20,059 nt of DNA from a virus. The notes beneath the pieces were generated by a model that was not told the DNA's origin, did no database searches, and saw only the letters and a list, made by a program, of their open reading frames with translations. Location: the IMG/VR virus record IMGVR_UViG_3300020404_002217, positions 1 through 20,059 of that record; one strand, 5' to 3'. The translations under genes were made by a program, and so were the position numbers. Below are positions 148-15,323 of this stretch, piece after piece (position 1 is the first letter of the stretch; each line of letters starts with the position of its first letter).

Positions 148-160
148 TATTTACAATAAA
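148..160 (+). promoter_or_regulatory. Variant copy of the TATTTATAA promoter-like motif
   Basis: TATTTACAATAAA lies 21 bases before the start at 169. It differs from the consensus TATTTATAATAAA by a single C. It fills the short gap after the upstream stop codon, which fits a transcription start for the small gene cluster 169-1389. A promoter role is inferred from recurrence in front of several genes. Confidence 0.4.
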
Positions 161-168
161 CAAAAATT

Positions 169-435
169 ATGGCTAAAATAGAAAAAACACCATTTCCACA
201 AAGTAAAAAATTAAAAAAAGTAGACGGAACTATTGCCTATGTTTGGGATGGTAAACTTCATAATTGGGAAGGATATGCTTTAATCCCTGAAGGTATAGAA
301 AAAAATGGAGAGTATCATTTATATGGTATTAAAATGTCTAAAGAAGAATGGAGTGAAGCTAGAAAACAAAGGGAAGGATTACCTTATTACAAAAACCAAT
401 CAATGAAAGCACATCTTTCAGATTATAGAAATTAA
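169..435 (+). CDS. Small conserved-looking hypothetical protein, 88 aa
   Basis: I do not recognise a named family. The protein is soluble, with a lysine-rich N-terminus, a tryptophan/tyrosine-rich core (YVWDGKLHNWEGYALIPEG near residues 24-42) and a C-terminal helix with EEW and KQREGLPYY. The WDGK..NWEG pattern looks like a compact beta domain, and I see no catalytic motif. ATG at 169 follows an A/T-rich leader with a promoter-like motif and no Shine-Dalgarno sequence. Its stop overlaps the next start as TAATG, so it is probably co-translated with the nucleotidyltransferase. A role in the same small-molecule pathway is possible but unsupported. Confidence 0.8.
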   Translation: MAKIEKTPFPQSKKLKKVDGTIAYVWDGKLHNWEGYALIPEGIEKNGEYHLYGIKMSKEEWSEARKQREGLPYYKNQSMKAHLSDYRN

Positions 436-857
436 TGAAAAGAGAAGCAGTTATAGTATCTGGTTATTTTAATCCACTCCATGTTGGGCATTTAGAATTA
501 TTTGAAAAATCATCTAGTGAGGGAGCATTCTTAATTGTCATTGTTAACTCAGATTTACAAAGGGAATTAAAAGGTTCTAAAGAGTTTATGCCCGAAGATG
601 AAAGGTTAAAAATAGTACAATCAATTAAAGGTGTTGGAACTGCTTTAATTTCAATTGATAAAGATTCTACCCAAAATGAAACATTAACCCATTTACATGA
701 GTTATATAGTGGAAATTGGGATTTACATTTTGCAAACGGGGGTGATCAGAATAATGATACTATACCAGAAAGCGTGATTTGTAATAAATTGGGTATTACA
801 TTGATAGATGGATTAGGTGATAAAATACAATCTAGTAGTTGGTTATTAAATAAATAA
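435..857 (+). CDS. HxGH-type nucleotidyltransferase (cytidylyltransferase-like), 140 aa
   Basis: This is a member of the nucleotidylyltransferase superfamily that transfers AMP or CMP to a phosphorylated small molecule. The signature is a first beta strand followed by GYFNPLHVGH (residues 10-19), with the catalytic-type H16-x-G-H19 pair. The C-terminal SSSW (133-136) sits where the ISSTxIR-type loop that binds triphosphate lies in this family. The N/D-rich region around residues 100-108 (NGGDQNN) resembles the substrate loop of HldE-C/TagD-like enzymes. About 140 residues is the usual length for a single-domain member. It overlaps the previous gene by one base (TAATG) and is followed one base later by a P-loop kinase, so the two probably act in one pathway. 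The substrate (sugar phosphate, NMN, glycerol phosphate) cannot be decided from sequence. Confidence 0.82.
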   Translation: MKREAVIVSGYFNPLHVGHLELFEKSSSEGAFLIVIVNSDLQRELKGSKEFMPEDERLKIVQSIKGVGTALISIDKDSTQNETLTHLHELYSGNWDLHFANGGDQNNDTIPESVICNKLGITLIDGLGDKIQSSSWLLNK

Positions 858-858
858 T

Positions 859-1389
859 ATGAAAATAGGTTTATGTGGTACAATGAGTGTAGGTAAAACT
901 ACATTAGTTAATGCTTTAAAAGAAACACAACAGTTTAAAGACTATATGTTTAGAACAGAACGTTCTAAATTTTTAATGGAGCAGGGTATCCCACTTAATA
1001 CTGATTCTACATTAAAAGGTCAAACAGTATTTTTAGCTGAACGTTGTGCTGAATTAATTCAAACGGATATTATAACAGATAGAACTGTAATTGATGTTAT
1101 GGCCTTTACAATGAATGCTAAATCTATTCCTTACCAAGATAAAGAAGCATTTGAAACTTATGCTAGTGAATTTATTAGAGAATATGATTATATATTTTAT
1201 ATTTCTCCTTATGGTTTACCTATAGAAGATAATGGAGTTAGAGAAACTGATGAATATTATAGAGATCTAATAGATTTTACTATTACTACACTAATCAAAA
1301 GATACGGTCATAGATGCAAATCAGTAGAAAAAATATCAGGATCTACAGATGAACGTATTCAACAAATATTGAATATTACAGGGCTTTAA
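859..1389 (+). CDS. NadR-like P-loop ATPase/kinase (AAA_28-like), 176 aa
   Basis: The protein opens with a beta strand and Walker A motif GTMSVGKTT (residues 7-15). It then shows ERSKFLMEQG and a TDR segment (residues 74-76) with hydrophobic strand YIFYISPYG, the layout of NadR C-terminal ribosylnicotinamide-kinase-like proteins (AAA_28 family). Such proteins phosphorylate small nucleosides or related metabolites in the cytoplasm. The gene starts one base after the nucleotidyltransferase stop (TAATATG). In bacterial NadR an HxGH adenylyltransferase domain and this kinase domain are fused, so the adjacent pair here may be a split version. That is inference, since many phage AAA_28 proteins have no known substrate. 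Confidence 0.75.
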   Translation: MKIGLCGTMSVGKTTLVNALKETQQFKDYMFRTERSKFLMEQGIPLNTDSTLKGQTVFLAERCAELIQTDIITDRTVIDVMAFTMNAKSIPYQDKEAFETYASEFIREYDYIFYISPYGLPIEDNGVRETDEYYRDLIDFTITTLIKRYGHRCKSVEKISGSTDERIQQILNITGL

Positions 1390-1390
1390 C

Positions 1391-1405
1391 ATATTTATAA
1401 TAAAA
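1391..1405 (+). promoter_or_regulatory. Candidate phage promoter motif ATATTTATAATAAAA
   Basis: An exact copy of the recurrent intergenic motif lies immediately after the stop at 1389. Its TATTTATAA core starts 25 bases before the ATG at 1417. It contains TATAAT, and the reverse complement of its TATTTATA core is TATAAATA, the T4 late promoter core. Promoter function is inferred. Confidence 0.55.
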
Positions 1406-1416
1406 CCCTTATTACG

Positions 1417-1965
1417 ATGAAAAAATCTGAGTTAAAAAACTTTATTAGAGAAGAAATTGTGTCCACATTATCCGAAAATCTTGATGATGAAATTAAAGCA
1501 TTAGATGCATATGATGCCAAATTAGATGATGTAATTAAGAAAAAAGAAGAGGCTGGTATTGAAGAAAAAGTAGCTAAATCAGTAGATGATGTTATTGACC
1601 CAGCTGATTATGGTCTTATTGGTTCAGGTTATTTAAAAGGCTTTAATAGACCTCATTCTTTAGATGCTGATCAATTAGAGACTCTTGGACGTAAAATTGT
1701 TAAACAATTATATAAAGGGGATTTTGATAAGGCTAAAGCTAAATTTATTAAAGAAGATGAAGTTAAAGAACCATCTGATGCTGAAATAAAAAAAAACAAA
1801 AGTTTAGCTAAGGCAGCTGAGGAATTAGCTGTATTAACTCGTGAGATGAAATCATTAGCTAAAAAATATTCTAAGGCTGAAGGGCAGGAAAAAGAAGATT
1901 TATTAAATAAATTGAAATCTAAAACTAAATTAAAAAAAGAATTAGATAAAATTTTAGATAAATAA
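1417..1965 (+). CDS. Coiled-coil probable virion-associated protein with IREEI N-terminus, 182 aa
   Basis: I do not recognise a characterised family. The N-terminus MKKSELKNFIREEIVSTLSE forms an amphipathic helix, a type of opening I associate with structural proteins of marine T4-like phages. The middle has an acidic/lysine-rich helix (21-60) and a more globular segment with DYGLIGSGYLKGFNRP (about 64-79). The C-terminal third (about 118-182) is strongly helical and charged, rich in K, E and L, and probably forms a coiled coil. No enzymatic motif is seen. It has its own promoter-like motif upstream. It lies two genes before the large terminase, where a small terminase could be expected. Length and coiled coil would allow that, but nothing specific supports it. 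Confidence 0.78.
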   Translation: MKKSELKNFIREEIVSTLSENLDDEIKALDAYDAKLDDVIKKKEEAGIEEKVAKSVDDVIDPADYGLIGSGYLKGFNRPHSLDADQLETLGRKIVKQLYKGDFDKAKAKFIKEDEVKEPSDAEIKKNKSLAKAAEELAVLTREMKSLAKKYSKAEGQEKEDLLNKLKSKTKLKKELDKILDK

Positions 1966-1967
1966 AA

Positions 1968-2351
1968 ATGGAGTCTAAAGAAAGGGTTATTTACATATTA
2001 AAAATCGTAGTACTATTCTGTATAATATTTTGGTTATTATTTTCAGATAAGGAAGAATATGTTGAAGATTATAATGCTAAAATAGAAGCATTAGAACAAA
2101 AAGTCGATTCGTTACATCATATAAATGACGAATTGACTTTTAAAATCGACACTTTAAATGGCCAGATAACAAAATTAGATAAACAAATTGATATTAAGGA
2201 TAACAGAATAAATAGCTTGAAATATGAAATTAATACAAAAGTTAATGCCGTTGATGATTTTGATGATGATGAGCTTGAAAAGTTTTTCACAGAGCGTTAC
2301 AGACAGTACCTCGATTCAACTGAAAAAACCAATAGCACGTCTAGTAATTAA
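1968..2351 (+). CDS. Membrane-anchored coiled-coil protein, candidate inner spanin (Rz-like), 127 aa
   Basis: One N-terminal membrane segment (about residues 7-26, VIYILKIVVLFCIIFWLLFS) is preceded by a short charged cytoplasmic start. It is followed by a heptad-patterned helix (about 36-90) with regular L/I/V spacing (IEALEQKVDSLHHI and onwards), then an acidic DDFDDDELEKFF tail. A single N-terminal anchor with a periplasmic coiled coil is the architecture of inner-membrane spanins (Rz), which link inner and outer membranes at phage lysis. The last 128 bases overlap the next gene in another frame, as Rz/Rz1 genes often do. No lysozyme or holin is visible nearby, so the lysis role is inferred from architecture alone. 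A generic membrane-bound coiled-coil protein is the alternative. Confidence 0.6.
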   Translation: MESKERVIYILKIVVLFCIIFWLLFSDKEEYVEDYNAKIEALEQKVDSLHHINDELTFKIDTLNGQITKLDKQIDIKDNRINSLKYEINTKVNAVDDFDDDELEKFFTERYRQYLDSTEKTNSTSSN

Positions 2352-2637
2352 AGATTTAATAACTGGAGATGGAGCTAAAAATGAGTTAGCTTTAACATTA
2401 GATAAAATACAATTATTAGAACAAAAAGTTGTTTTAAAAGATAGTGTTATTTTAAATCTTACTTCTCAAGTAGGAAATTTTGAATCTATAATGTCTACTA
2501 AAAGTGATCAATTAGCTTTATCTCAAGAATTATCCAAAAAACTCCAAACAGATTTAAAAAAACAAAAACTAAAAACTAAATTAATGGGGGGAGCAGGAAT
2601 ACTAGTAGCTGTAGGGGTTGCTATTTTAGTTAAGTAA
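2224..2637 (+). CDS. Secreted/periplasmic coiled-coil protein overlapping the upstream gene, candidate spanin partner, 137 aa
   Basis: The reading frame begins inside the upstream gene (+2 relative frame) and shares 128 bases. The N-terminus is a good signal peptide: basic MKLIQK, hydrophobic LMPLMILMMMSL, then KSFSQ with likely cleavage after Q23, a form common in Bacteroidota. The mature part has KKPIARLVIKDLITGDG (about 34-50) and a helical coiled-coil region (60-115). It ends with a basic stretch and a hydrophobic C-terminal segment (about 120-136, MGGAGILVAVGVAILV). No lipobox cysteine is present, so it is not a classical outer-membrane spanin lipoprotein. The next in-frame ATG beyond the signal region is far downstream, which supports a start inside the overlap. 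A role together with the upstream protein in envelope disruption is inferred. Confidence 0.65.
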   Translation: MKLIQKLMPLMILMMMSLKSFSQSVTDSTSIQLKKPIARLVIKDLITGDGAKNELALTLDKIQLLEQKVVLKDSVILNLTSQVGNFESIMSTKSDQLALSQELSKKLQTDLKKQKLKTKLMGGAGILVAVGVAILVK

Positions 2638-2638
2638 T

Positions 2639-4210: not shown

Positions 4211-4212
4211 CA

Positions 4213-4230
4213 ATATTTATAACAATAAAA
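4213..4230 (+). promoter_or_regulatory. Candidate phage promoter motif before the portal gene
   Basis: ATATTTATAACAATAAAA lies between the terminase stop and the portal ATG at 4238, and its TATTTATAA core starts 24 bases before that ATG. It keeps the ATATTTATAA core exactly, with CA inserted before the A-rich tail. Confidence 0.55.
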
Positions 4231-4237
4231 TAATATT

Positions 4238-6157
4238 ATGGCTGATAAAAGCATATTTTCAAGATTACAAAGATTATTTTCAACTGACGTTATTATCAGA
4301 AATGTTGGTGGAAACCAAATAAAAACAATAGACTCAGGGCATATTCAATCTAGTGGGGAATATGAAACTAATTCTTTAATGGATAGATATAATAGAATCT
4401 ATTCTACAGCTCCTTCTTCTTTATATGGGGCACAATTTAATTTAAATTATCAATATCTTCGTACTATGATTTATTCAGAGTATGATGTAATGGATCAAGA
4501 TGCTATTGTAGCATCGGCACTTGATATTTTAGCAGATGAATCCACATTAAAAAATGATATGGGAGAAGTACTTCAAATTAGGAGTGCTAATGAAGACATA
4601 CAAAATATTCTATATAATTTATTTTATGATGTATTAAATATTGAGTTTAATCTTTGGATGTGGATTAGACAAATGTGTAAATATGGTGATTTTTTCTTGA
4701 AATTAGAAATAGCAGAAAAATTTGGTGTTTATAATGTTATACCTTATACAGCCTATCACATGGAAAGACAAGAAGGATATAATGAAGAGAACCCACAAGA
4801 AATTAGATACGTTTATAACCCAGAGGGTTATGTAGGAGGTGGAACTAGTAGTTCAGGTTATTATACAGTAAATCAAAATCCGGATAATACAACAGGTATT
4901 ATATTTGATAATTATGAAATGGCTCACTTTAGGTTAGTAGGAGATGTTAACTATTTACCCTATGGTAGGGCTTATATTGAACCAGCTAGAAAATTATTTA
5001 AACAATATACTTTAATGGAGGATGCTATGTTAATTCATAGAATTGCTCGTGCGCCTGAAAAACGAATTTTTTATGTAAATGTTGGAGCTATTCCACCTAA
5101 TGAAATAGAAACATTTATGCAAAAAACTATTTCGAGTATGAAGCGTACTCCATTTATGGATGAAAAAACAGGTGAATATAATTTAAAATATAACATGCAA
5201 AATATGTTAGAAGACTTTTATATTCCTGTTCGTGGAAATGATAACACAACTAAAATAGATACTACCCCTGGTTTACAGTATGATGGAATTCAGGATGTAG
5301 AATATTTAAGAGGTAAGTTATTTGCTGCTCTTAAAATCCCTAAAGCATTCTTAGGATATGAAGAAGGGTTAGAAGGTAAAGCAACACTAGCACAACAAGA
5401 CATTAGATTTGCTCGTACAATTGATCGTATCCAAAGAATTATTCTATCAGAACTTAATAAAATAGCACTTGTTCATTTATATACTCAAGGATACACAGAT
5501 GAAACATTAACTAATTTTACTTTAAACATGACTACTCCTTCGATCATTTATGATCAGGAAAGAATTGAGTTAATGAAATCAAAAGCTGAATTATCTGCTA
5601 CTTTATTAGAACAAGGTTTAGTACCATCAGATTGGATCTATGATAATATTTATCACTTTAGTGAAGATCAATATGATGAATATAGAGATTTAGTTAGAGA
5701 AGATGCTAAACGTAAATTTAGAATAGCACAAATAGAAGCAGAGGGTAATGACCCTGTAGAAACGGGTAAATCATATGGTACACCACATGATTTAGCTTCA
5801 CTATATGGTAAAGGTAGAATGTACTCAGAGCCAGACAATGTACCAGATCCAGAAAAATATGCTTCAGATGACCCTAAATTAGGTAGACCAAAAAATACTA
5901 ATGTAAAACGTAATACACAAGATGACAATTTTGGTAAAGATAGATTAGGTACTAAACGAATGAAGGATACAGATAAAAATGATTCTAATTCTATTAGACC
6001 AAAATTTAAAGGAGGGAGCCCATTAGCTTTAGAAAGTGCTAAAACTACATATTTAAAAAATAAAGATATGTTTAAAAAAATAAATCAAAAAAGGCTAATT
6101 TTTGAAGAAGATAAAGATACATCTTCATTATTAGATGAAAACCAATTAAAGAAGTAA
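4238..6157 (+). CDS. 20: Portal vertex protein (T4 gp20-like), 639 aa
   Basis: This protein forms the dodecameric ring at the head vertex through which DNA is packaged and to which neck and tail attach. Hallmarks shared with T4 gp20 are MWIRQMCKYGDFF (about 141-153), RAPEKRIFYVNVG (from 271), NMLEDFYIPVR (about 325), and DVEYLRGKLFAALKIP (about 352-367) followed by a G/E-rich loop. It is about 115 residues longer than T4 gp20 (524 aa). The extra length is a C-terminal low-complexity, charged tail with D/N/K-rich stretches, ending LIFEEDKDTSSLLDE. The tail may be bound by scaffold or trimmed by the prohead protease. ATG at 4238 follows a promoter-like motif with no Shine-Dalgarno sequence. Confidence 0.95.
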   Translation: MADKSIFSRLQRLFSTDVIIRNVGGNQIKTIDSGHIQSSGEYETNSLMDRYNRIYSTAPSSLYGAQFNLNYQYLRTMIYSEYDVMDQDAIVASALDILADESTLKNDMGEVLQIRSANEDIQNILYNLFYDVLNIEFNLWMWIRQMCKYGDFFLKLEIAEKFGVYNVIPYTAYHMERQEGYNEENPQEIRYVYNPEGYVGGGTSSSGYYTVNQNPDNTTGIIFDNYEMAHFRLVGDVNYLPYGRAYIEPARKLFKQYTLMEDAMLIHRIARAPEKRIFYVNVGAIPPNEIETFMQKTISSMKRTPFMDEKTGEYNLKYNMQNMLEDFYIPVRGNDNTTKIDTTPGLQYDGIQDVEYLRGKLFAALKIPKAFLGYEEGLEGKATLAQQDIRFARTIDRIQRIILSELNKIALVHLYTQGYTDETLTNFTLNMTTPSIIYDQERIELMKSKAELSATLLEQGLVPSDWIYDNIYHFSEDQYDEYRDLVREDAKRKFRIAQIEAEGNDPVETGKSYGTPHDLASLYGKGRMYSEPDNVPDPEKYASDDPKLGRPKNTNVKRNTQDDNFGKDRLGTKRMKDTDKNDSNSIRPKFKGGSPLALESAKTTYLKNKDMFKKINQKRLIFEEDKDTSSLLDENQLKK

Positions 6158-6167
6158 AATATTTTAC

Positions 6168-6182
6168 ATATTTATAAATAAA
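6168..6182 (+). promoter_or_regulatory. Candidate phage promoter motif before the 6193 gene
   Basis: ATATTTATAAATAAA has its TATTTATAA core starting 24 bases before the ATG at 6193, right after the portal stop. This copy also carries TATAAATA (T4 late promoter core) on the + strand. Confidence 0.55.
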
Positions 6183-6192
6183 TATATTTTTA

Positions 6193-7056
6193 ATGAAAAT
6201 AAAACACTCAAAGTACAAAAATACGGGAATATTATTTGAATTATTAGTACGTCAAATAACGGCTGATACATTAAAAGGTGGGGATTCCCCAGCTATTGAT
6301 ATTCTAAAAGAGTATTTTGTAAAAACTGAATTAGGAAGAGAATATAAATTATATGAATCTATAATTAAGTCTAAAGTATTAACGGAAAGCAAAGCTATTT
6401 TAGTTATTAATTCTATTTTAGAAATAAATAATAAATTAAATAGAAAAGCTATTAAAAGACAAAAATATAATTTAATAAATGAGATTAAAAAAAGCTACAA
6501 TTTAGAATCTTTCTTTGGTTCAAAAATTAAAAATTATAAAGAATTAGCATCTTTGTATACATTAATAGAATCATATAATGCAGATAATACAATAGCAACA
6601 GAACAAATTATTGATAGCAAACTTACTTTATTAGAGTATTTAACTGAAAAAGTTATAAAACCTGATACTAAACAAACAGTATTAGAAGAATTTTCTTCAT
6701 ATGATAAAGATGTAAGAACCCTTACATATAAAGTATTATTAGAAAAATTTAATAGTAAGTATGATGTTTTATCCAATGATCAAAAACAAATACTTAAAGA
6801 ATATATCAACTCAGTAGATTCAACTCCTGATTTAAGAAATTTTTATAATATAAAAATCACAGAATTAAAATCTACACTATCTAAAATCAATAAATTAGTT
6901 AAAGATAAAGTTACACAAATAAAAATTACTGAGGTATCTAAGTTTTTAACCGAATTAAAGAAAACTGATAAAGTTGGAGATGATAATTTAGTTGATTTGT
7001 TACGTTTTTATGAATTGGTACAAGAAATAAAAGTAGCAAATGGCGTTCAGATATAA
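6193..7056 (+). CDS. Head-region hypothetical protein, mostly helical, 287 aa
   Basis: I do not recognise a characterised family. It is an alpha-helical, lysine/isoleucine/leucine-rich cytosolic protein. It begins MKIKHSKYKNTGILFELLVRQI and carries a KQKYNLINEIKKSY segment (about 90-103) with repeated amphipathic helices to the end. No signal peptide, membrane segment or catalytic motif is seen. It sits between portal and prohead protease, where T4 keeps its small prohead-core genes (67, 68), so an assembly or internal head role is a positional inference. It has its own promoter-like motif. Its last 17 bases overlap the next gene in another frame, so the two are likely translated together. 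Confidence 0.82.
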   Translation: MKIKHSKYKNTGILFELLVRQITADTLKGGDSPAIDILKEYFVKTELGREYKLYESIIKSKVLTESKAILVINSILEINNKLNRKAIKRQKYNLINEIKKSYNLESFFGSKIKNYKELASLYTLIESYNADNTIATEQIIDSKLTLLEYLTEKVIKPDTKQTVLEEFSSYDKDVRTLTYKVLLEKFNSKYDVLSNDQKQILKEYINSVDSTPDLRNFYNIKITELKSTLSKINKLVKDKVTQIKITEVSKFLTELKKTDKVGDDNLVDLLRFYELVQEIKVANGVQI

Positions 7057-8224
7057 ACTTAAGGAAATGTCTAAAACTGCTTCTCCTGAAGCAGCTGAAA
7101 AGGAAACGGGAATCTCAAAAGATGAACAACGTGTAGGGAAAGTTACCTATAGTAAGGATGGTGATACGAAATTTACTGTTACTAATATAAATCCTGACAC
7201 AGGTCAAATATCTTGGAAAGTTACTGATCTCCCTGCTTTTGATAAATTACTTGATGATGCTGATGCATTAATTGCTACATCTAAAGGTGTTTATACTAAA
7301 ACTAAAGATGATGAAAAATTTAGAGAGTTTTATGAAGAAGCAAGAGTAATTAGAAATAAAATTAGAAAACATCTTAGAAACGAATATCCAGAAGAATATA
7401 AAAGAATGCAAATGTTCAAGGAAGGAGAAATAGATGAAATATCCACTACAGGAGGTGGAGCTGGAGCAGCAAGTTTTAGTGCCGGTACAGGGATGCAATA
7501 CGCTACACCTTATGCTTTTAGAAAAAAAGGTGCTAAACCCGATGATGAGGAATATATGAAACTTGGTTATAGATTAGCCAAAGAGGGCACTTGTGGTTAT
7601 GATAGAGATAATAAGGGGAAAAAATTAAAGGGACCAGGTGGGTTAGGTGAAGGTGATACTTACGAAAAAATGGCTGCCAAAGGTAAAAAAGCAGGTAGTT
7701 TAAAACAAGGTACTGTTAGAAAAAGATTAGGTATTAAAAAAGGAGAAAAAATTCCATTATCTAAAATAAATAAAGAATTAGCACGTCTTAAAAAAATGGA
7801 TAAAGATGATGATAAAAAAGGTGTGCAATTAGGGGATAAAAATCAAAAATATTATAAGGCATTACAATTATCAAAAACATTAAAAACAACAACTAATGTT
7901 AATGAAGAAGTAAAAGTAGGGGATATACTTACTAAAGATGGAAGAAAAGGTAAAGTTGTGAAAGTAATGGATGATATGGCTAATGTAGATTTTGGTAATG
8001 GGGACGTTTATGGAATTACTTTTAGACGAATAAAAGGAAATAAAATAGTAAATGAAAATGACAAAGACCCAGGAGCTACATTAGGACCTGGTCCTAAAGC
8101 AACGGAAGATGGGGTAAAGGATAATTATTACGTAAAAGCATTTAAATATAAATTAGTCCCTAAAACTAAAGATGGTACTTATGTACAAAAAGGCTCAGGA
8201 CTCGACGTAAATAAATTATTTTAA
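7040..8224 (+). CDS. Multi-module head-region protein carrying the GGGAGA tag shared with the capsid protein, 394 aa
   Basis: The family is unknown. Modules seen: an N-terminal region (1-130) opening MAFRYKLKE; a probable protease site IDE (131-133); then TGGGAGAASFSAGTGMQYA (137-155), which matches the major capsid protein at 13 of 19 positions; a basic segment AGSLKQGTVRKRLGIKKGE (218-236); an SH3/KOW-like beta module (about 291-332, VGDILTKDGRKGKVVKV and onwards); and a C-terminal AFKYKL (367-372) that echoes the N-terminus. It overlaps the previous gene by 17 bases. ATG at 7067 is a possible alternative start. The (I/L)-x-E pattern is the T4 prohead protease preference, so this may be an internal or capsid-associated protein matured with the head. 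Basic and SH3-like parts could bind DNA. These roles are inferred. Confidence 0.83.
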   Translation: MAFRYKLKEMSKTASPEAAEKETGISKDEQRVGKVTYSKDGDTKFTVTNINPDTGQISWKVTDLPAFDKLLDDADALIATSKGVYTKTKDDEKFREFYEEARVIRNKIRKHLRNEYPEEYKRMQMFKEGEIDEISTTGGGAGAASFSAGTGMQYATPYAFRKKGAKPDDEEYMKLGYRLAKEGTCGYDRDNKGKKLKGPGGLGEGDTYEKMAAKGKKAGSLKQGTVRKRLGIKKGEKIPLSKINKELARLKKMDKDDDKKGVQLGDKNQKYYKALQLSKTLKTTTNVNEEVKVGDILTKDGRKGKVVKVMDDMANVDFGNGDVYGITFRRIKGNKIVNENDKDPGATLGPGPKATEDGVKDNYYVKAFKYKLVPKTKDGTYVQKGSGLDVNKLF

Positions 8225-8225
8225 T

Positions 8226-8462
8226 ATGTATAATAAAAATATTAAAGAACAAGAAGATAAAGTAGAACAATTCCAAAAAGAAAGAATTGAAGCGTTTGAT
8301 AAACTTGAATCTGAATTAGAAGATATAAAAAAATTATTACGTCAAGGTAAAATAAGTACAGTAAAATATTATAGAGAAAACCCAGGAAGTTTCGGGGTAC
8401 ATATTGGAACAGATTTAATTGGCGACTATTTTAAAGATATTAAAACACTATTAGATAAATAA
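8226..8462 (+). CDS. Small helical head-region protein, 78 aa
   Basis: The first half is a charged helix likely to form a coiled coil (KEQEDKVEQFQKERIEAF, then LESELEDIKKLL). The second half is globular, with RENPGSFGVHIGTDLIGDYF. No known family is recognised. It starts one base after the previous stop (TAATATG), ends four bases before the next gene, and lies in the interval occupied by the small prohead-core genes 67/68 in T4. A core or chaperone role is a positional guess. Confidence 0.78.
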   Translation: MYNKNIKEQEDKVEQFQKERIEAFDKLESELEDIKKLLRQGKISTVKYYRENPGSFGVHIGTDLIGDYFKDIKTLLDK

Positions 8463-8465
8463 ATT

Positions 8466-9764: not shown

Positions 9765-10372
9765 TGAGTAAATCACTTTTAATAGAAACAACTCCTTTTA
9801 AAGCAAACCCAATTAAGTTAACAGAAAACGTTAATAAAGAAAATGGAAATTTGCTCGTAGAAGGTATTTTAGCAACTGCTGAAGTAAAAAATGGTAATGG
9901 TCGTTATTACTCAAAAAGTCTTTGGGATAGAGAAATGGAAAAATATAATGAGCTAATTGAACAAAGAAGATCATGTGGTGAATTAGACCACCCAGAATCT
10001 ACAGTTGTAAATTTAAAAAATGTATCTCATTTAATTAACGATTATTGGTGGGATGGAGATAATGTAATGGGTAAAATAGAAATACTCCCTACTCCTTCGG
10101 GTAATATATTAAAAGAACTTATTAAAAGTGGTGTTACAGTAGGTGTATCATCCAGAGGTATGGGTTCATTAGAACAAAGAGGTGATCTAATGGAAGTACA
10201 AGATGATTTTGAATTATTATGTTGGGATTTTGTATCTACTCCTTCGAACCCAGGTTCATATATGCATGAAATAATTAAAGAAGGTAAAGAAAAATTTATT
10301 TACGATTATACAAATGTAAATAAAATTTTACACGAAATACTTTGTTCCAAAGGATCTTGTCCTATTCTGTAA
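9764..10372 (+). CDS. 21: Prohead maturation protease (T4 gp21-like), 202 aa
   Basis: This serine protease sits in the prohead core, cleaves scaffold, internal proteins and the capsid protein N-terminus, and so allows head expansion. The herpes/T4-type protease layout is clear: NGNGRYYSKSLW (43-54), GELDHPEST with catalytic-type H76 (72-80), GVTVGVSSRGMG with the nucleophile at S129 or S130 (123-134), and CWDFVSTPSNPG with a possible third residue D155 (153-164). Length (202 aa) is close to T4 gp21 (212 aa). The start overlaps the previous stop as TAATG, and no Shine-Dalgarno sequence is seen. A 124-base leader with two hairpins separates it from the scaffold gene. Confidence 0.94.
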   Translation: MSKSLLIETTPFKANPIKLTENVNKENGNLLVEGILATAEVKNGNGRYYSKSLWDREMEKYNELIEQRRSCGELDHPESTVVNLKNVSHLINDYWWDGDNVMGKIEILPTPSGNILKELIKSGVTVGVSSRGMGSLEQRGDLMEVQDDFELLCWDFVSTPSNPGSYMHEIIKEGKEKFIYDYTNVNKILHEILCSKGSCPIL

Positions 10373-10406
10373 TTTTACAAAATCTACATATACGTATAAT
10401 CGCAAT

Positions 10407-10430
10407 GTGTCATGAATCTGAATATGACAC
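10407..10430 (+). promoter_or_regulatory. Perfect inverted repeat (7-bp stem) between protease and scaffold genes
   Basis: GTGTCAT at 10407-10413 and ATGACAC at 10424-10430 are exact inverted copies separated by 10 bases. No T-run follows, so it is not a standard intrinsic terminator. It could be an operator, an RNA processing or stability element, or a hairpin at the 5' end of the scaffold/capsid mRNA. Function is unknown. Confidence 0.45.
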
Positions 10431-10451
10431 CGATATATAATTAATTCTTAT

Positions 10452-10471
10452 TACGATTCCTAATAATCGTA
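10452..10471 (+). promoter_or_regulatory. Second inverted repeat (7-bp stem, 6-base loop) before the scaffold gene
   Basis: TACGATT at 10452-10458 pairs with AATCGTA at 10465-10471. It is AT-rich and lies 25 bases before the scaffold ATG. Together with the hairpin at 10407-10430 it structures the whole leader. A role in mRNA stability or translation of the abundant scaffold and capsid proteins is a guess. Confidence 0.4.
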
Positions 10472-10496
10472 TTTCACAAACTTAAATTTTGAGATT

Positions 10497-11702
10497 ATGG
10501 CAAACAATGATTTGTTAAAAGAAGCAATTGCTGATGCTAAAGCTGTTAAAGAAACTGCTATCGCAAATGCTAAACTTGCTCTTGAGGAGGCTTTTACTCC
10601 ACATTTGAAATCTATGCTTTCTGCAAAATTAGAAGAAATGGACAAAGAAGACGTTGACGAAGGATACGGTAAAAAGTATGAAGAAGACGACGTAAAGAAA
10701 GAAGAAATGGATTCTAAAGATGATATGAAAGAAGAGAAAGAAGATATGGATGAAGCTAAAGAAGAGCTTGATGAGATTAACTTAGACGAATTACTTGCTG
10801 AACTTGAATTGGATGAAGACAAACGTACAGATGCTGAACAAGAAGGCTATAAGGACGGATTCGAAGACGCTAAAGACGACATCGAAGCTGAACTTAAAAA
10901 AATGAAGGTATCAGAAGAGATGGAAGACAAAGACGATGTCAAAGAAGAAATGAAAGACAAAGACGATGTTAAAGAAGATGCTCGAACTGATGCTGAAGAA
11001 GAAGGCTACCTTGATGGTATGAAGGACGAAAAAGAAGACATGGATGACAAAGACGACGAGGAAATTGACCTTGAAGATATGTCAGAAGATGACTTAAAAG
11101 GATTCATTGAGGATGTTATTAAAGATTTAGTAACAGACGGAACAATTGAAGCAGGTGAAGATTTTGAAGAAGTAGACGTAGAAGATTCTGTAGATGTTGA
11201 TGTTGAAATTGACGAAGAAATGAAATCTGAAAAAGATGACATGGACGAAGAAATGAAAAAAGACGACGACAAAATGGAAGAAGAAATGTCAAACCCAGTA
11301 ATGCGTAAAGGTCTTAAAGGTGATAATGAAACCGAAAAAGAAACTGAAAAAATGAGATTCAAAGAAGCAATTGATGAAATCAATGAGCTTAAAAAAGAAT
11401 TGAATGAAGTAAACCTTTTAAATGCAAAACTGCTTTACACAAATAAAATCTTTAAGTCTAAAAACTTAACTGAAGATAAAAAAGTTAAAGTGCTTAAAGC
11501 ATTTGACAAAGCGTCAACAGTAAAAGAAGCTAAAGTTATTTTTGAAACATTAAATGAAGGTTTAATGTCTAAAACAGAAGCCCCAGCAAGACCAAAAGGT
11601 AGTGCCTCAAGAGCAACTGGAACAATAACGGAAGCTAAAAAACCTATTATTGAAAGCAATGATGTATACAATCGTATGCGTAAACTTGCTGGACTAATTT
11701 AA
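10497..11702 (+). CDS. 22: Prohead scaffold protein (T4 gp22-like), 401 aa
   Basis: This is the main scaffold of the prohead core, around which the capsid protein assembles and which is later degraded by the prohead protease. The N-terminal 45 residues are an alanine/lysine-rich helix of gp22 type (LLKEAIADAKAVKETAIANA). The middle (about 47-270) is extremely acidic, rich in D, E, K and M, with internal repeats: RTDAE-x-EGY at residues 110 and 163, and a 10-residue unit DKDDVKEEMK repeated at 144 and 154. The C-terminal third is helical (NLLNAKLLYTNKIFKSKNL, about 308-326) and ends YNRMRKLAGLI. Candidate (I/L)-x-E cleavage sites include ITE and IIE near the C-terminus. It is longer than T4 gp22 (269 aa) because of the acidic expansion. 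It lies between protease and capsid genes, as in T4. Confidence 0.9.
   Translation: MANNDLLKEAIADAKAVKETAIANAKLALEEAFTPHLKSMLSAKLEEMDKEDVDEGYGKKYEEDDVKKEEMDSKDDMKEEKEDMDEAKEELDEINLDELLAELELDEDKRTDAEQEGYKDGFEDAKDDIEAELKKMKVSEEMEDKDDVKEEMKDKDDVKEDARTDAEEEGYLDGMKDEKEDMDDKDDEEIDLEDMSEDDLKGFIEDVIKDLVTDGTIEAGEDFEEVDVEDSVDVDVEIDEEMKSEKDDMDEEMKKDDDKMEEEMSNPVMRKGLKGDNETEKETEKMRFKEAIDEINELKKELNEVNLLNAKLLYTNKIFKSKNLTEDKKVKVLKAFDKASTVKEAKVIFETLNEGLMSKTEAPARPKGSASRATGTITEAKKPIIESNDVYNRMRKLAGLI
10926..10979 (+). repeat. 30-base tandem duplication inside the scaffold gene
   Basis: Two near-identical copies, starting at 10926 and 10956, encode DKDDVKEEMK and DKDDVKED (residues 144-161). They differ at a synonymous C/T and near the end of the second copy. 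This looks like recent in-frame duplication in a low-complexity acidic region. Confidence 0.75.
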
Positions 11703-11736
11703 AAATAATTAATTAACCCTATTAAAACTTAAAAAA

Positions 11737-13398
11737 ATGAGCTTAAATACTCTTTTAGAAAGCGCAAACCCATATCACTCAATGCAGAGTGATGCAGCCA
11801 AATTGGCATCAAAATGGGAAAAAACAGGTTTATTAGAAGGTTTAGAAGGAGCAAATAAATCCAATATGGGTATTATCCTTGAAAACCAAGCTAAGCAACT
11901 TGTTGTAGAGGAATCTAACACTGGTGGTGGTGCTGGAGCAGGTAATTTTACACCTGGTACTGGTGCACAGTGGGCTGGAGTAGCTTTACCATTGGTAAGA
12001 AAAGTATTTGGTCAAATTGCAGCGAAAGAATTCGTTAGCGTTCAACCAATGAACTTACCTTCTGGTCTAGTATTCTACCTAGATTTCCAATATGGAACTG
12101 GAAAAGTTCCATTTTCAGCAAATTCATCAGTATATGGTGATGCTGGAACAAATCCATCAACTGCTCCTTTCGGGAACACTAATTCAGGTGGTCTTTATGG
12201 AGAAGGAAGATATGGATATTCTATTAACACTACTGCATCGGTATTCACTGCTGAAGCACAAATTACTACAGGATCAGCTACTTTACACTCAATCAATTAT
12301 GATTCAGCATTCTCAGCTTCTGTAGCAAGTGGTGCTGTTGTAACTGCATCTGTAGCTATTGCTGCTTTAGATGGTCAGTATGATGCTGAAGCAATTAGAA
12401 GTTTCTACTTAGTAGGTGACTCTAATGCTCCTTCATTATCACAACAATACCCACAGTTTACACAGCTTAATGCTGCTGGTGACAGAATTGAATTCGTAAT
12501 TGATCAAAATTCTATTGTACCAGATCAGTATGCTGCTTCAAACCTTGGTGTATCTTACTCATTAGCTCCAACGGATGCTGATAGAGGTGATTTTGAAGAT
12601 GGAAATAATAACCTAAATGGAAATAACACTCCAATTAGTATTCCAGAAATCAATGTACAGATGCAATCATCTGCTATTGTTGCTAAAACTAGAAAATTAA
12701 AAGCTGTTTGGACTCCTGAGTTCGCTCAAGATCTTAACGCTTATCATGCTCTAGATGCTGAAGCGGAATTAACTTCTATTTTAAGTGAGTACATTTCATT
12801 AGAAATTGACTTGGAAATCTTAGACATGCTACAAGAATCAGCTGCTGCTGGAACTGAAGTATGGTCAGCCGTAAACAACAGAGCAATTATTGATAATGGT
12901 GTAAATGGTACTGTAGATACTTTAGGTTTCTACAATAGCCAAGGACAGTGGTTCCAAACTTTAGGAACTAAAATCCAAAAATTAAGTAACATCATCCACC
13001 AGAAAACTCTACGTGGTGGTGCTAACTTTATGGTAATTTCTCCAACAATCGGTACAATCCTAGAATCAATTCCTGGATATGCTGCTGATGCTGATGGTGA
13101 TGTATCTAAATCAACTTACGCCTTTGGTGTACAAAAAGTTGGTGCGTTCAACGGAAGATATAAAGTGTACAAAAATCCTTACATGACTGATAATTTAGTA
13201 TTACTAGGATTTAGAGGTTCACAATTCCTTGAAACGGGTGCTGTATTTGCTCCATACATTCCATTAATCATGACTCCACTTATCTACGATCCATCTACAT
13301 TCACTCCAAGAAAAGGATTGATGACTAGATATGCGAAGAAAATGGTACGTCCTGAATTCTATGGTAAGATCTTAATTAATGGTTTAGATACTATCTAA
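11737..13398 (+). CDS. 23: Major capsid protein (T4 gp23-like), 553 aa
   Basis: This protein forms the hexamers of the head shell (HK97 fold). Residues 1-59 form a charged propeptide helix ending QLVVEE, after which the gp21-type protease probably cuts. T4 gp23 is cut at E65. The mature start is then SNTGGGAGAGNFTPGTGAQWA (60-80), followed by LPLVRKVFGQIAAKEFVSVQPMN, matching the T4 gp23 MVRRAIP...GVQPMN region. A VFYLDFQYG strand follows, as in gp23. Near the C-terminus VGAFNGRYKVYKNPYM and MTRYAKKMVRPEFYGKI are characteristic of this family. The sequence uses more C-ending codons (TTC, TAC, AAC) than the portal or flanking genes, as expected for the most abundant protein. The start follows an A-run (AAAAAAATG) with no Shine-Dalgarno sequence. 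A strong terminator follows. Confidence 0.96.
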   Translation: MSLNTLLESANPYHSMQSDAAKLASKWEKTGLLEGLEGANKSNMGIILENQAKQLVVEESNTGGGAGAGNFTPGTGAQWAGVALPLVRKVFGQIAAKEFVSVQPMNLPSGLVFYLDFQYGTGKVPFSANSSVYGDAGTNPSTAPFGNTNSGGLYGEGRYGYSINTTASVFTAEAQITTGSATLHSINYDSAFSASVASGAVVTASVAIAALDGQYDAEAIRSFYLVGDSNAPSLSQQYPQFTQLNAAGDRIEFVIDQNSIVPDQYAASNLGVSYSLAPTDADRGDFEDGNNNLNGNNTPISIPEINVQMQSSAIVAKTRKLKAVWTPEFAQDLNAYHALDAEAELTSILSEYISLEIDLEILDMLQESAAAGTEVWSAVNNRAIIDNGVNGTVDTLGFYNSQGQWFQTLGTKIQKLSNIIHQKTLRGGANFMVISPTIGTILESIPGYAADADGDVSKSTYAFGVQKVGAFNGRYKVYKNPYMTDNLVLLGFRGSQFLETGAVFAPYIPLIMTPLIYDPSTFTPRKGLMTRYAKKMVRPEFYGKILINGLDTI

Positions 13399-13426
13399 TC
13401 AGATAATTAATATTTCTTAATAAATT

Positions 13427-13452
13427 AACCCGGCTTTATGCCGGGTTTTTTT
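13427..13452 (+). terminator. Intrinsic terminator after the major capsid gene
   Basis: The stem AACCCGGC (13427-13434) pairs perfectly with GCCGGGTT (13440-13447) around a TTTAT loop, and the T-run spans 13446-13452. It is one of the few GC-rich spots in the window. It closes the head transcript 29 bases after the capsid stop. Confidence 0.93.
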
Positions 13453-13461
13453 ATGTTTTTA

Positions 13462-13476
13462 ATATGTATAATAAAA
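13462..13476 (+). promoter_or_regulatory. Promoter-like motif just after the capsid terminator
   Basis: ATATGTATAATAAAA differs from the consensus ATATTTATAATAAAA by one base (G for T) and starts 10 bases after the terminator T-run. It would give phoH a leader of over 100 bases. No other gene is credible in the 13453-13594 interval. Confidence 0.42.
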
Positions 13477-13594
13477 TGCGTTGTATTAGAACTATATTTA
13501 TCTTTTTATATAGCTATATTAAAATTACCCTGTCTTTTAACGTATTTACTTCGGTTTTATCCAATTATTGTATAATCCCTAATTTCAAGAATTT

Positions 13595-14332
13595 ATGGCA
13601 AGTAAACACCATACGGACGAAGTTTATCGTCCTAAGAGAATTCCTAAGAACCCAATTAAGTTTAAACTACAACTTAATGCCGAACAAAAAGAAGCTAAAT
13701 CATCTATCCTCGATAATACAATCACACTCCTTGGAGGGAGTGCAGGTAGTGGTAAAACATTATTAGCATGTAATGTTGCATTAGACGGACTGTTACGAAG
13801 ACAATATGATAAAATTATTATCACCAGACCTACAGTATCAAAAGAAGAAATAGGATTTCTACCTGGTGATTTAAGAGAAAAAATGGATCCTTGGGTTCAA
13901 CCTATATATCAAAACTTTTTTGCTTTATATGATAAGGTTAAAGTAGAAAAATTAATTGAAGATGGAAAAATAGAAATTGTACCCGTATCTTTTATGAGAG
14001 GTAGAACATTTTTAGACTCAATGATTATTGTGGATGAAGCACAAAATGTTACCCACGAACAAATGGAAATGATTACTTCACGTTTAGGATTAAGAAGTAA
14101 AATGATGATATGTGGTGATCAACACCAAACAGATTTAAAGAAAAAATCTGATTCTGGGTTTAAATTTTTATATGCTGCAGCCAGAAAAATAAAAAACCTA
14201 GAAGCAATCACATTAATCGCTAATCATAGAAATGAAATTGTTGAAGATTTATTAGATTATTATAATGAAGCAGTAGATAAAGGAGCAAGCATTACTGTTT
14301 CTGGTTCATATATTTATAATAATAAAAATTAA
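13595..14332 (+). CDS. phoH: PhoH-like P-loop ATPase, 245 aa
   Basis: This is a RecA-fold ATPase of the PhoH family, widespread in marine T4-like phages. Its biochemical role in phages is unsettled, though related proteins act on RNA. Visible motifs are Walker A GGSAGSGKT (47-55), ITRPTVSKEEIGFLPGD (76-92), Walker B IIVDEAQN (144-151, D147/E148) and MICGDQHQTD (171-180), all in the family's usual order. Length is typical for a single-domain phage PhoH. ATG at 13595 is chosen because the conserved fold begins soon after, and the leader is A/T-rich without a Shine-Dalgarno sequence. It sits directly after the head module, and its own 3' end contains a promoter-like motif for the next gene. Confidence 0.93.
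   Translation: MASKHHTDEVYRPKRIPKNPIKFKLQLNAEQKEAKSSILDNTITLLGGSAGSGKTLLACNVALDGLLRRQYDKIIITRPTVSKEEIGFLPGDLREKMDPWVQPIYQNFFALYDKVKVEKLIEDGKIEIVPVSFMRGRTFLDSMIIVDEAQNVTHEQMEMITSRLGLRSKMMICGDQHQTDLKKKSDSGFKFLYAAARKIKNLEAITLIANHRNEIVEDLLDYYNEAVDKGASITVSGSYIYNNKN
14310..14328 (+). promoter_or_regulatory. Upstream tandem copy of the promoter-like motif, inside the end of phoH
   Basis: ATATTTATAATAATAAAA, with the exact ATATTTATAA core at 14310-14319, overlaps the codons for the last phoH residues. A second copy follows 27 bases later, so the gene at 14359 may have tandem starts of transcription. Confidence 0.42.
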
Positions 14333-14336
14333 TTTC

Positions 14337-14351
14337 ATATTTATAATAAAA
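14337..14351 (+). promoter_or_regulatory. Candidate phage promoter motif before the 14359 gene
   Basis: ATATTTATAATAAAA is an exact consensus copy whose TATTTATAA core starts 21 bases before the ATG at 14359, just after the phoH stop. Confidence 0.55.
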
Positions 14352-14358
14352 TTATAAA

Positions 14359-14901
14359 ATGGCAAAATGTGTAACTAGTGGATCTTTAAAGGTCCTTATA
14401 CAAGAAAGTATAACTCTACCTAATAAAAATGAAGAAGTTTGTATTAATGAAGTTACAATACCTGGTATTAACCAAACAGTAAGAAGAGTAGATACAATTT
14501 CAACTACATTTAGTGGTAGCGGAATAGAAATTTTAAGATTTGTTGATTCTGAAGAACAACAAGTAGCTGGTTCATTTGTTAGAGATACAGTTAAATATAT
14601 GAGGTTTACTAATTTATGTACAACTAATTATTTATCTCTTTATTTAATTCAAGATAGCCCTGATGCTCAAAACCCAAACACAGATGATGTTGGTTCAGGT
14701 GATGATGGTTTATTTAAAATAGACCCAGGCAAATCAATGGTATTTTCTAATGGACAATTTGATAGTAATAATTTTTATGATTATGTAGTTGAAGGGTATG
14801 TTGATGAACAATATTTTGCTGGATTTGCATCATTAACTTCAATTAAGGCAAAAGCAGATACTAAAGACGTTCAAATAGAATATTTTGTAGCTTCTTCTTA
14901 A
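14359..14901 (+). CDS. Unknown, probable virion structural protein, 180 aa
   Basis: I do not recognise a family. The protein is predicted to be mainly beta-structured, with alternating hydrophobic strands (LKVLIQESITL, about 10-20; KYMRFTNLCTTNYLSLYLIQD, about 79-99). A D/N-rich loop (100-118) follows, then KIDPGKSMVFSNG (about 120-132) and a C-terminal DVQIEYFVASS. The pattern of a strand-rich domain with a PGKS-type turn resembles phage virion decoration or baseplate-associated small proteins, but this is only impression. It has its own promoter-like motifs and is followed by a short fibre-like gene with another motif, so both may be expressed late. No signal peptide is present. Confidence 0.75.
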   Translation: MAKCVTSGSLKVLIQESITLPNKNEEVCINEVTIPGINQTVRRVDTISTTFSGSGIEILRFVDSEEQQVAGSFVRDTVKYMRFTNLCTTNYLSLYLIQDSPDAQNPNTDDVGSGDDGLFKIDPGKSMVFSNGQFDSNNFYDYVVEGYVDEQYFAGFASLTSIKAKADTKDVQIEYFVASS

Positions 14902-14915
14902 TATTTATAATAAAA
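14901..14915 (+). promoter_or_regulatory. Candidate phage promoter motif before the 14933 gene
   Basis: ATATTTATAATAAAA is an exact consensus copy starting at the last base of the 14359 gene's stop. Its core starts 31 bases before the next ATG. Confidence 0.55.
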
Positions 14916-14932
14916 TTAAATTTAAATAAAAA

Positions 14933-15253
14933 ATGGCATTAACATATAGATCAGTAAAAGGTTCAGCATTAACAATAACTGAATTAGATGACAATTTTAG
15001 ATACTTTACAGGTTCTCATAGTGTAACAGGATCATTAGATATAAATGGTGGTTTAATAGTAACTGGATCAATTGAATTAGTTGATGGTGGGTCTCTAGTT
15101 GGAGGAGGAGTAAATCTTACAGGTTCCTTTTCGGGATCATTTTCTGGATCAATAGATGGAGCTGAATTATTTGTAGGCAATTTACCATCAGCAGACCCAG
15201 GTGTTGCTGGTCAACTTTATAATGACAGTGGAACAATAAAAATATCTTTATAA
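14933..15253 (+). CDS. Short fibre-like virion protein with TGS repeats, 106 aa
   Basis: The N-terminus MALTYRSVKGSALTITELDDNF is of a type I associate with the start of phage fibre and appendage proteins (LTYRxVKGxxLTxxELDxNF). It is followed by G/S-rich short beta repeats (VTGSLDINGG, VTGSIELVDGG, LTGSFSGSFSGS). The end, LPSADPGVAGQLYNDSGTIKISL, also resembles fibre modules that precede or cap trimeric beta structure. It is far shorter than usual fibres. In T4 the fibritin (whisker) gene wac lies directly before gene 13, and this gene is directly before the gp13-like gene here. A whisker- or collar-type role is therefore a positional idea, not shown by sequence similarity. Confidence 0.78.
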   Translation: MALTYRSVKGSALTITELDDNFRYFTGSHSVTGSLDINGGLIVTGSIELVDGGSLVGGGVNLTGSFSGSFSGSIDGAELFVGNLPSADPGVAGQLYNDSGTIKISL

Positions 15254-15281
15254 AATTTATTAATTTTTAAAGTAAAAAATT

Positions 15282-15307
15282 AGACCTCAATTTGAGGTCT
15301 TTTTTTT
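15282..15307 (+). terminator. Intrinsic terminator after the fibre-like gene
   Basis: AGACCTCA (15282-15289) pairs with TGAGGTCT (15293-15300) around a 3-base loop, followed by a T-run to 15307. It lies 28 bases after the fibre-like gene's stop. Confidence 0.92.
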
Positions 15308-15308
15308 C

Positions 15309-15323
15309 ATATTTATAACAAAA
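15309..15323 (+). promoter_or_regulatory. Candidate phage promoter motif directly after a terminator, before the neck genes
   Basis: ATATTTATAACAAAA begins two bases after the terminator T-run, and its core starts 22 bases before the ATG at 15332. It would restart transcription for the gp13/14/15-like block. Confidence 0.6.

Follow-up and report, generated by a model that had tools for sequence, protein, structure and literature searches.

What is the ten-letter motif that recurs in front of one gene after another in IMG/VR virus record IMGVR_UViG_3300020404_002217, and what would read it? The window analysed here is the whole of that record, 20,059 bases without a completeness estimate, with its main genes all on the + strand and with PHROGs matches that make up a T4-type head module (terminase gp17, portal, head protease, major head protein, PhoH and head-tail adaptor). 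A first-pass annotation, made from the sequence, had taken the motif, ATATTTATAA, for a phage late promoter read by a sigma-like factor of the phage itself. The motif is real and strongly conserved, and it quite probably marks a late promoter class that Flavobacterium phage immuto and a group of T4-like relatives have in common and that a diverged sigma factor of these phages reads. T4 late transcription, a classic of gene control, serves as the point of comparison throughout.

Seven exact copies of ATATTTATAA occur in the window, at 1391, 4213, 6168, 14310, 14337, 14901 and 15309, just where the first-pass annotation had placed them, and all lie on the + strand, with none on the − strand. In 2000 dinucleotide shuffles, the comparison that annotation had called for, the + strand count averages 0.43 with a maximum of 4 and never reaches 7, and ATATTTATAA is the commonest 10-mer in the window. 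Copies with up to one mismatch, counted on both strands of the window, do not exceed chance (20 against 17.7 expected), a point against the promoter reading; the exact core therefore holds the signal, and the single-mismatch copies reported near 148 and 13462 need a separate argument. Both exist, the first starting at 147. That copy, ATATTTACAA (147–156, + strand), is a weak candidate 22 nucleotides (nt) before the open reading frame (ORF) at 169; an exact match is present in 0 of 34 orthologues and one with up to one mismatch in 6 of 34, against 3 of 34 in the antisense control, and its role as a promoter is doubtful. The other, ATATGTATAA (13462–13471, + strand), is to judge from its sequence a possible variant promoter for PhoH (13595–14332). 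PhoH begins 133 nt after it, and it shares bases with a short ORF that is probably spurious; upstream of it is an intrinsic-terminator-like hairpin that a sequence scan places after the capsid gene (13427–13447, + strand). Exact copies within 70 nt precede PhoH orthologues in 1 of 7 and 6 of 48 cases, a range that the copy at 133 nt falls outside, leaving it without support from conservation.

The exact copies, putative late promoter cores on the + strand, stand at short range before their genes. The 5' end of the core precedes the start codon by 26 nt for hyp182 (core 1391–1400, gene 1417–1965), 25 nt for portal gp20 (4213–4222, 4238–6157), 25 nt for hyp287 (6168–6177, 6193–7056), 22 nt for hyp180 (14337–14346, 14359–14901), 32 nt for hyp106 (14901–14910, 14933–15253) and 23 nt for the neck gene (15309–15318, 15332–16504). 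The interval of 21–31 nt given earlier for nearly every copy thus describes these six closely, the 32 nt of hyp106 lying just beyond it; it does not describe the copy at 14310–14319, the front member of a tandem pair, for which the start codon, at 14359, is 49 nt away. Intergenic placement, likewise claimed, fails for this front copy, which lies inside the 3' end of PhoH, and the first base of the 14901 copy is also the third base of a stop codon. A second intrinsic-terminator-like hairpin from the sequence scan (15282–15300, + strand) stands immediately 5' of the 15309 copy. Scanning for generic sigma-70 promoters gives no more sites than chance would (100 against 111).

Relatives of the window are abundant in IMG/VR, with at least 600 matches, of which the best 80 were used. 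The resulting terminase loci (80 relatives, 712,514 bases, with 797 ORFs on the + and 3 on the − strand) were complemented by 80 capsid loci (783,423 bases); five contigs are common to both sets by name, the sets are not fully independent, and the relatives share ancestry. ORFs in them come from a simple script, and some starts will be wrong. Copies equally common on the other strand, which the first-pass annotation had named as damaging to its reading, are not seen: the terminase loci hold 228 forward and 4 reverse copies of ATATTTATAA, and 207 of the forward ones have a start within the next 60 nt; in the capsid loci 233 copies are forward, 194 of them ahead of a start, and 2 are reverse. 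ATATTTATAA is also the top upstream 10-mer in the terminase loci, preceding 204 starts, against a mean of 6.7 for the other 164 10-mers of the same letters, several of the highest of which overlap the motif. Across 179 distinct sites anchored on TATTTATA, an A stands before the anchor in 99% and after it in 99%, followed by any base, A (68%), A (97%), A or T, and A (94%), and the consensus of the ATATTTATAA box is ATATTTATAAnAAnA. The box-to-start distance in the terminase loci is most often 24–25 nt, within a range of 10–49 nt.

Conservation at orthologous sites separates genes that carry the box from genes that do not. Orthologues were found by an N-terminal match to each window gene and the 70 nt upstream were scanned, with the near-identical relative L007 excluded; paired figures refer to two orthologue sets. 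The exact motif is present at 22/22 sites for hyp182, 67/75 for portal (72/75 with up to one mismatch), 56/56 for hyp287, 8/9 for hyp106, and 7/8 and 50/69 for the neck gene; for hyp180 at least one exact copy occurs in 2/2 and 10/10 orthologues, a joint test of the neighbouring copies at 14310 and 14337. Few copies precede hyp78 (3/22 and 5/35). No exact copy within 70 nt is found for hyp88 (0/34), the nucleotidyltransferase (0/4), the AAA protein (0/45), hyp127 (0/1), hyp137 (0/53), terminase (0/75), hyp394 (0/29 and 0/19), hyp432 (0/12 and 0/19), the protease (0/22 and 0/60) or the two genes after neck (0/62 and 0/56). The earlier observation that the scaffold/capsid start lacks the motif extends to the relatives, with 0/15 and 0/37 for scaffold and 0/18 and 0/76 for capsid. 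Four genes at the right end of the window have no orthologue in either set, and the antisense control gives 0 exact copies for every gene. Portal identity falls to 67% among the rows shown (every fourth), with the 10-mer mostly retained; in the 70 nt upstream of portal the best non-overlapping 10-mer reaches 24/75 against 67/75 for the motif, and upstream of neck 7/69 against 50/69. The weaker case is hyp287, where a flanking 10-mer also recurs in 43/56. The portal and hyp287 sites occur with one mismatch in immuto and in Microcystis phage Mel-JY01.

These two are the nearest named phages by terminase identity (60% and 54%), with uncultured phage LR756508 (43%) and Rhodothermus phage RM378 (32%) more distant; megablast of the window against phages gave no match. 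From immuto we infer a Bacteroidota host for the window phage. Scanned over 160,000 of its 160,366 bases, immuto carries 8 forward and 0 reverse exact copies of ATATTTATAA, has TATTTATA before 24 starts and has a second box, TATATTTAG, before 17. The two classes are sharply distinct: TTG lies exactly 23 nt upstream of 17/17 TATATTTAG sites and of 0/24 late-box sites. When only genes preceded by 20 nt or more of intergenic sequence are counted, TATTTATA precedes 15/30 in the structural region against 6/57 elsewhere (p=1e-4), and TATATTTAG precedes 0/30 against 17/57 (p=4e-4), both p-values being optimistic because the border of the structural region (from 78.8 kb) was drawn from annotation after the site list had been seen. 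The word late, as applied to the motif, refers to this association with the immuto structural region only. The TATATTTAG class fits the Bacteroidota housekeeping consensus, with TTTG at -33 and TANNTTTG at -7 (PMC6847099), whereas the late class does not match this sigma-ABfr promoter (-33 TTTG / -7 TAnnTTTG). The TATATTTAG sites of immuto (MW353177.1, 22–26 kb and 60–76 kb) are highly uniform, with GTTG about 20 nt upstream. At the 179 terminase-locus sites TTG peaks at -23 (28) and -16 (37), peaks that, judged by eye, look like terminase coding sequence before portal.

The first-pass annotation had tied the motif to T4 through its reverse complement, which contains the T4 late core, and this link is misleading, since T4 reads TATAAATA in the sense direction and here TATTTATA is the sense reading. 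The same script applied to 50 kb of T4 returns TATAAATA as the top upstream 8-mer, with 11 sense and 5 antisense copies at 54 starts (0.4 expected), and in P-HM1 it finds NATAAATA 5 times sense and 0 times antisense at 35 starts. Sense and antisense counts of TATTTATA before starts are 24 and 6 of 213 in immuto, and 6 and 1 of 25 in the window. The T4 box, TAT-AA-ATA, and the motif box, TAT-TT-ATA, have TAT..ATA in common and differ at the two central positions; the reverse complement resembles the T4 box because both boxes are near-palindromes.

A candidate reader is encoded in immuto. In that genome the profile of the gp55 family (phrog_234) has a single match, gene 152 (78130–78828, annotated hypothetical; 12.7 bits, E 0.008). 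The candidate is about 230–260 residues long and its gene is kept in at least 600 IMG/VR stretches, the best 80 of which were used. Among named phages, tblastn finds the gene only in four immuto records, Mel-JY01 and LR756508, the same six records that are best by terminase. Sequence-level detection is marginal: phrog_234 reaches E 0.5 or lower in 4 of 14 candidate members, with 0.026 as the best value, and has no match in Mel-JY01, and profile-profile comparison (hhalign) with nine gp55 proteins gives E 2.4e-4 and a probability of 44% over 102 columns with divergent members included, and 5.9% without them. The LR756508 copy has a gp55-profile E of 5.8e-5, among only 11 proteins. T4 gp55 alone matched no ORF in the loci by phmmer; Pfam Sigma70_r2 has no immuto or Mel-JY01 match and is sub-threshold only in 2 of 8 members; no Pfam family rises above cut-off in the eight members scanned; and searches of the PDB gave no match with the candidate profile and none under E 0.001 with Foldseek.

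In an AlphaFold2 model of the candidate (predicted local distance difference test, pLDDT, 76.6), residues 1–116 match sigma region 2 of solved structures, the top five at Z 8.3–9.1 with root-mean-square deviations (rmsd) of 2.5–4.5 over 90–108 residues; one example is S. aureus sigB (Z 9.1, rmsd 2.5 over 90 residues). The alignment covered only chains pre-ranked by Foldseek, and Z values such as these are middling for helical proteins and can reflect a common arrangement. By title, nearly all of the 50 structures listed (Z 6.9–9.1) show sigma factors or polymerase complexes from bacteria or phages, the exceptions being three cross-linking models (rows 1, 3 and 40), with two rows having an rmsd above 20. 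In the viral library, Foldseek finds UPI00000381BA (264 aa, E 8.3e-5), which is as long as RM378 p020, and several lower-ranked entries are named RNA polymerase sigma factor. A C-terminal helical domain (residues 134–228, pLDDT 88) has no clear fold, with a best Foldseek E of 0.79; its best VIA-align rows are a SigN polymerase chain (Z 6.1) and the sigma54 core-binding domain (Z 5.5), and sigma4 is not among its structure matches, which does not exclude sigma4. The candidate is a sigma2-like protein and probably a distant relative of gp55.

The gene and the box occur together beyond immuto. Capsid contig G022 (62,078 bases), whose gene order matches that of the window (terminase 77%, portal 75% and capsid 74% identical), has 14 forward and 0 reverse exact copies of ATATTTATAA, and in 12 cases a start lies no more than 60 nt downstream. 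It encodes the sigma gene (6601–7302), followed at 7318 by a late box, the first of these copies, before the baseplate operon, as in immuto; 7 of 12 sigma-gene contigs have a relative of the window's portal. In RM378, p020 (264 aa, hypothetical; NC_004735.1 17032–17826) matches the candidate profile at E 1.6e-8 over positions 5–219, and the match therefore includes much of the C-terminal part. Over 50 of the 130 kb of that genome (40–90 kb), the box TTATTTAA precedes starts 11 times sense and 5 times antisense of 60 (0.1 expected), split six to five between the + and the − strand. A TTATTTAAA box likewise precedes RM378 genes on both strands. TATTTA-type sense boxes are thus found in phages with the candidate sigma (the window lineage, immuto, Mel-JY01 and RM378), and in LR756508 TATTTA[AT]A stands before 3/40 starts with none antisense; T4 and P-HM1 have gp55 and ATAAATA. 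The pattern, from five lineages against two that are not independent, suggests that box and sigma may go together.

The reading of ATATTTATAA as a phage promoter class served by a sigma-like factor draws the best support, from strand bias, conservation at orthologous sites, the immuto gene region, the missing -33 box and the conserved sigma2-like gene; of the earlier proposal it keeps the promoter class and the factor and drops the link to T4 by reverse complement. From these comparisons we infer promoter activity, late timing and the pairing of sigma with box. Besides the chance-level abundance of single-mismatch copies, several observations weigh against it. Of the 24 immuto starts preceded by TATTTATA, 8 are not in the structural region; exact ATATTTATAA is missing from Mel-JY01, where the TATTTATA signal is also weaker (13 sense and 3 antisense of 228 starts, 1.3 expected); and LR756508 has the sigma gene, yet no TATTTATA before the 40 starts examined. 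The match to gp55 is weak, its profile ranking the candidate first of 214 immuto proteins at an E of only 0.08, and the Mel-JY01 copy is absent from the six best gp55-profile matches listed. The sigma gene is not in the window record by sequence match, nor in 18/18 terminase contigs and 11/12 capsid contigs searched, all of them fragments. Finally, the gp45 clamp was not found with one Pfam model, PF02916, which finds it in T4: immuto, Mel-JY01 and two contigs of 162 and 167 kb give no match, and the LR756508 match (14.8 bits) is below cut-off.

The host's own machinery could account for the box if the Bacteroidota housekeeping sigma read it as a degenerate variant of the -7 element TAnnTTTG. 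ATATTTA fits that element with two mismatches, the position corresponding to A-11 is occupied by A in 99% of terminase-locus sites, and the TATATTTAG class of immuto obeys the host rule; against this, the late boxes of immuto lack the -33 TTG that every TATATTTAG site has, the A-11 position is C in 42% of immuto late sites, the T-12 position is T in only 25% (immuto) and 14% (terminase loci), the G-5 position is A, and the two box classes sit in different regions of immuto, so that a degenerate host promoter is unlikely. A signal acting in RNA, for translation start or messenger RNA (mRNA) processing in hosts without Shine-Dalgarno sites, would explain why one distance to the start codon, 24–25 nt, is commonest in the terminase loci; it would not readily explain distances that vary from 10 to 49 nt there, from 9 to 41 in immuto and from 11 to 58 in the capsid loci, the missing box before the capsid gene, the tandem copies at 14310 and 14337, or the 15309 copy directly 3' of a terminator-like hairpin, and we regard it as decidedly unlikely.

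Least credible is an ordinary T4 late promoter read in the opposite or in both directions. TATAAATA does lie within the reverse complement of the motif, and some copies extend as TATTTATAAATA, but the main genes are all on the + strand, sense TATAAATA is rare before starts (1 against 7 antisense in the window, 6 against 24 in immuto), and the script that gives these counts does recover sense TATAAATA in T4, which together make this explanation highly improbable.

If the phage promoter class is the right reading, ATATTTATAA would be the -10-type box of late promoters in a large immuto-related group of T4-like phages. Late in infection the host RNA polymerase would probably be redirected to it by a phage sigma that has a domain of the sigma region 2 type and, at its C-terminus, an additional helical one; if T4 is a guide, transcription would begin roughly one helical turn past the box, which would put the 5' ends of the mRNAs a little before the start codon. 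Other genes, presumably early, would have host-like promoters.

Such a system resembles the T4 late promoter, which is served by gp55 with gp33 and gp45 and is described as a single AT-rich box without a -35 box, AT-rich downstream and placed before structural genes (PMC2988020): the motif too is a single AT-rich box with no -35 element, AT-rich downstream sequence and T4-like virion genes behind it. It differs in that the sense box is TATTTATAA and not TATAAATA, the T4 late consensus quoted in PMC5587285, that the sigma candidate has an extra C-terminal domain, and that no gp45 was found with PF02916. The candidate has the sigma region 2 type domain of the gp55 late sigma family (phrog_234), from which its marginal sequence match, greater length and C-terminal helical domain set it apart. 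With RM378 the group has in common the TATTTA heart of the box, the sense bias, seen on both strands there, and a homologue of the sigma candidate, and differs in that RM378 reads TTATTTAA and the motif group TATTTATAA. The Bacteroidota housekeeping promoter is matched by the second immuto class, unlike the late class, which has no -33 box and precedes other genes.

More tentatively, the immuto/RM378 lineage may possess a single-chain late sigma whose C-terminal domain does the job of gp33 or replaces the clamp, with a shift of the box from TATAAATA to TATTTA-A alongside and a leader of the head operon, described below, as a second layer of control; we consider this conceivable rather than likely. 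A 2010 T4 review states that a fused late sigma had not been found (PMC2988020). A 2021 survey of jumbo phages reports that gp23-type phages encode sigma factors, some of them multi-domain, and also gp33 (PMC7824862), and a multi-domain phage sigma is therefore not new in itself; those sigmas are described as close to cellular RpoD, and the candidate, without a Pfam match, is set apart from them by that description. A literature search, with subscription journals mostly outside its scope, listed no paper on promoters of immuto-group phages, and the available passages of PMC7077304 contain neither 'promoter' nor 'immuto'. The box is defined, there is a candidate for the sigma, and in immuto, a phage in culture on Flavobacterium sp. 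LMO8, promoters split clearly into two classes; these make the virion-gene switch directly testable and would allow operons to be predicted in many related uncultured contigs. The group would further provide a natural example of co-divergence between a sigma factor and its box, as well as a candidate fused late sigma.

The scaffold/capsid operon, which lacks the box, has instead a leader of about 110 nt before the scaffold gene. Three methods, RNAalifold, pair counts and a covariance model, support a structured RNA leader at 10387–10499 (+ strand) that ends in the scaffold start codon. An alignment of 21 sequences (the window and 20 loci, with near-identical L007 dropped and Mel-JY01 left out) folds under RNAalifold into three helices, in which 98.6% of cells pair and 8 pairs change on both sides. 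Helix 1 (10407–10430) pairs 10407–10413 with 10424–10430 and shows both-side changes in 5/7 pairs; helix 2 (10452–10471) pairs 10452–10458 with 10465–10471, with 100% of cells paired and both-side changes in 2/7 pairs; helix 3 (10474–10494), beside the scaffold start codon, is the weakest of the three, its 4-pair part being 88.6% paired in a larger set. Both-side cells number 41 against 10.4 in shuffles, with 0/500 as high, and sliding the partners destroys the signal; further pair types are not above shuffles in the 21 sequences (16 against 16.0). In the larger set both-side cells number 196 against 51, with the alignment fitted to the structure and seven weak matches included.

The covariance model places the leader before scaffold in 65/80 capsid loci, in addition to the window, and in the remaining 15/80 the sequence upstream of the capsid gene is shorter than 1.5 kb. 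Matches in immuto (E 0.049) and Mel-JY01 (E 0.08) are the sole ones in those genomes and end at scaffold starts, and they are convincing because of that position only; hairpins 1 and 2 are visible by eye in immuto. Five further weak matches elsewhere (E 0.099 to 0.82) are probably chance. Leader copies lie at L087:15473–15590 and L091:23764–23872, L091 being part of the Mel-JY01 record. Near its 5' end the window leader holds the motif-like ATATACGTATAA, and ATAYGTAT lies near the 5' end in 64/73 leader matches; ATATACGTATAA may be a variant promoter, with a transcript start just before helix 1. Rfam 15 gives no match at E up to 1 in 10300–10600. The matches listed in the literature search include no paper on the scaffold leader, and PMC2864571 treats other phage RNAs, manA and wcaG.

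Mel-JY01 (PP395634.1), recorded as a Microcystis phage, has the terminase type and the sigma candidate in common with the window and immuto, and probably also their head leader; its recorded host deserves a check. Within the window itself, two separate cytidylyltransferase-like genes lie at 435–857 and 18872–19273, the latter adjoining genes for an APS-kinase-like protein, a HAD-like hydrolase and a DUF2061 protein.

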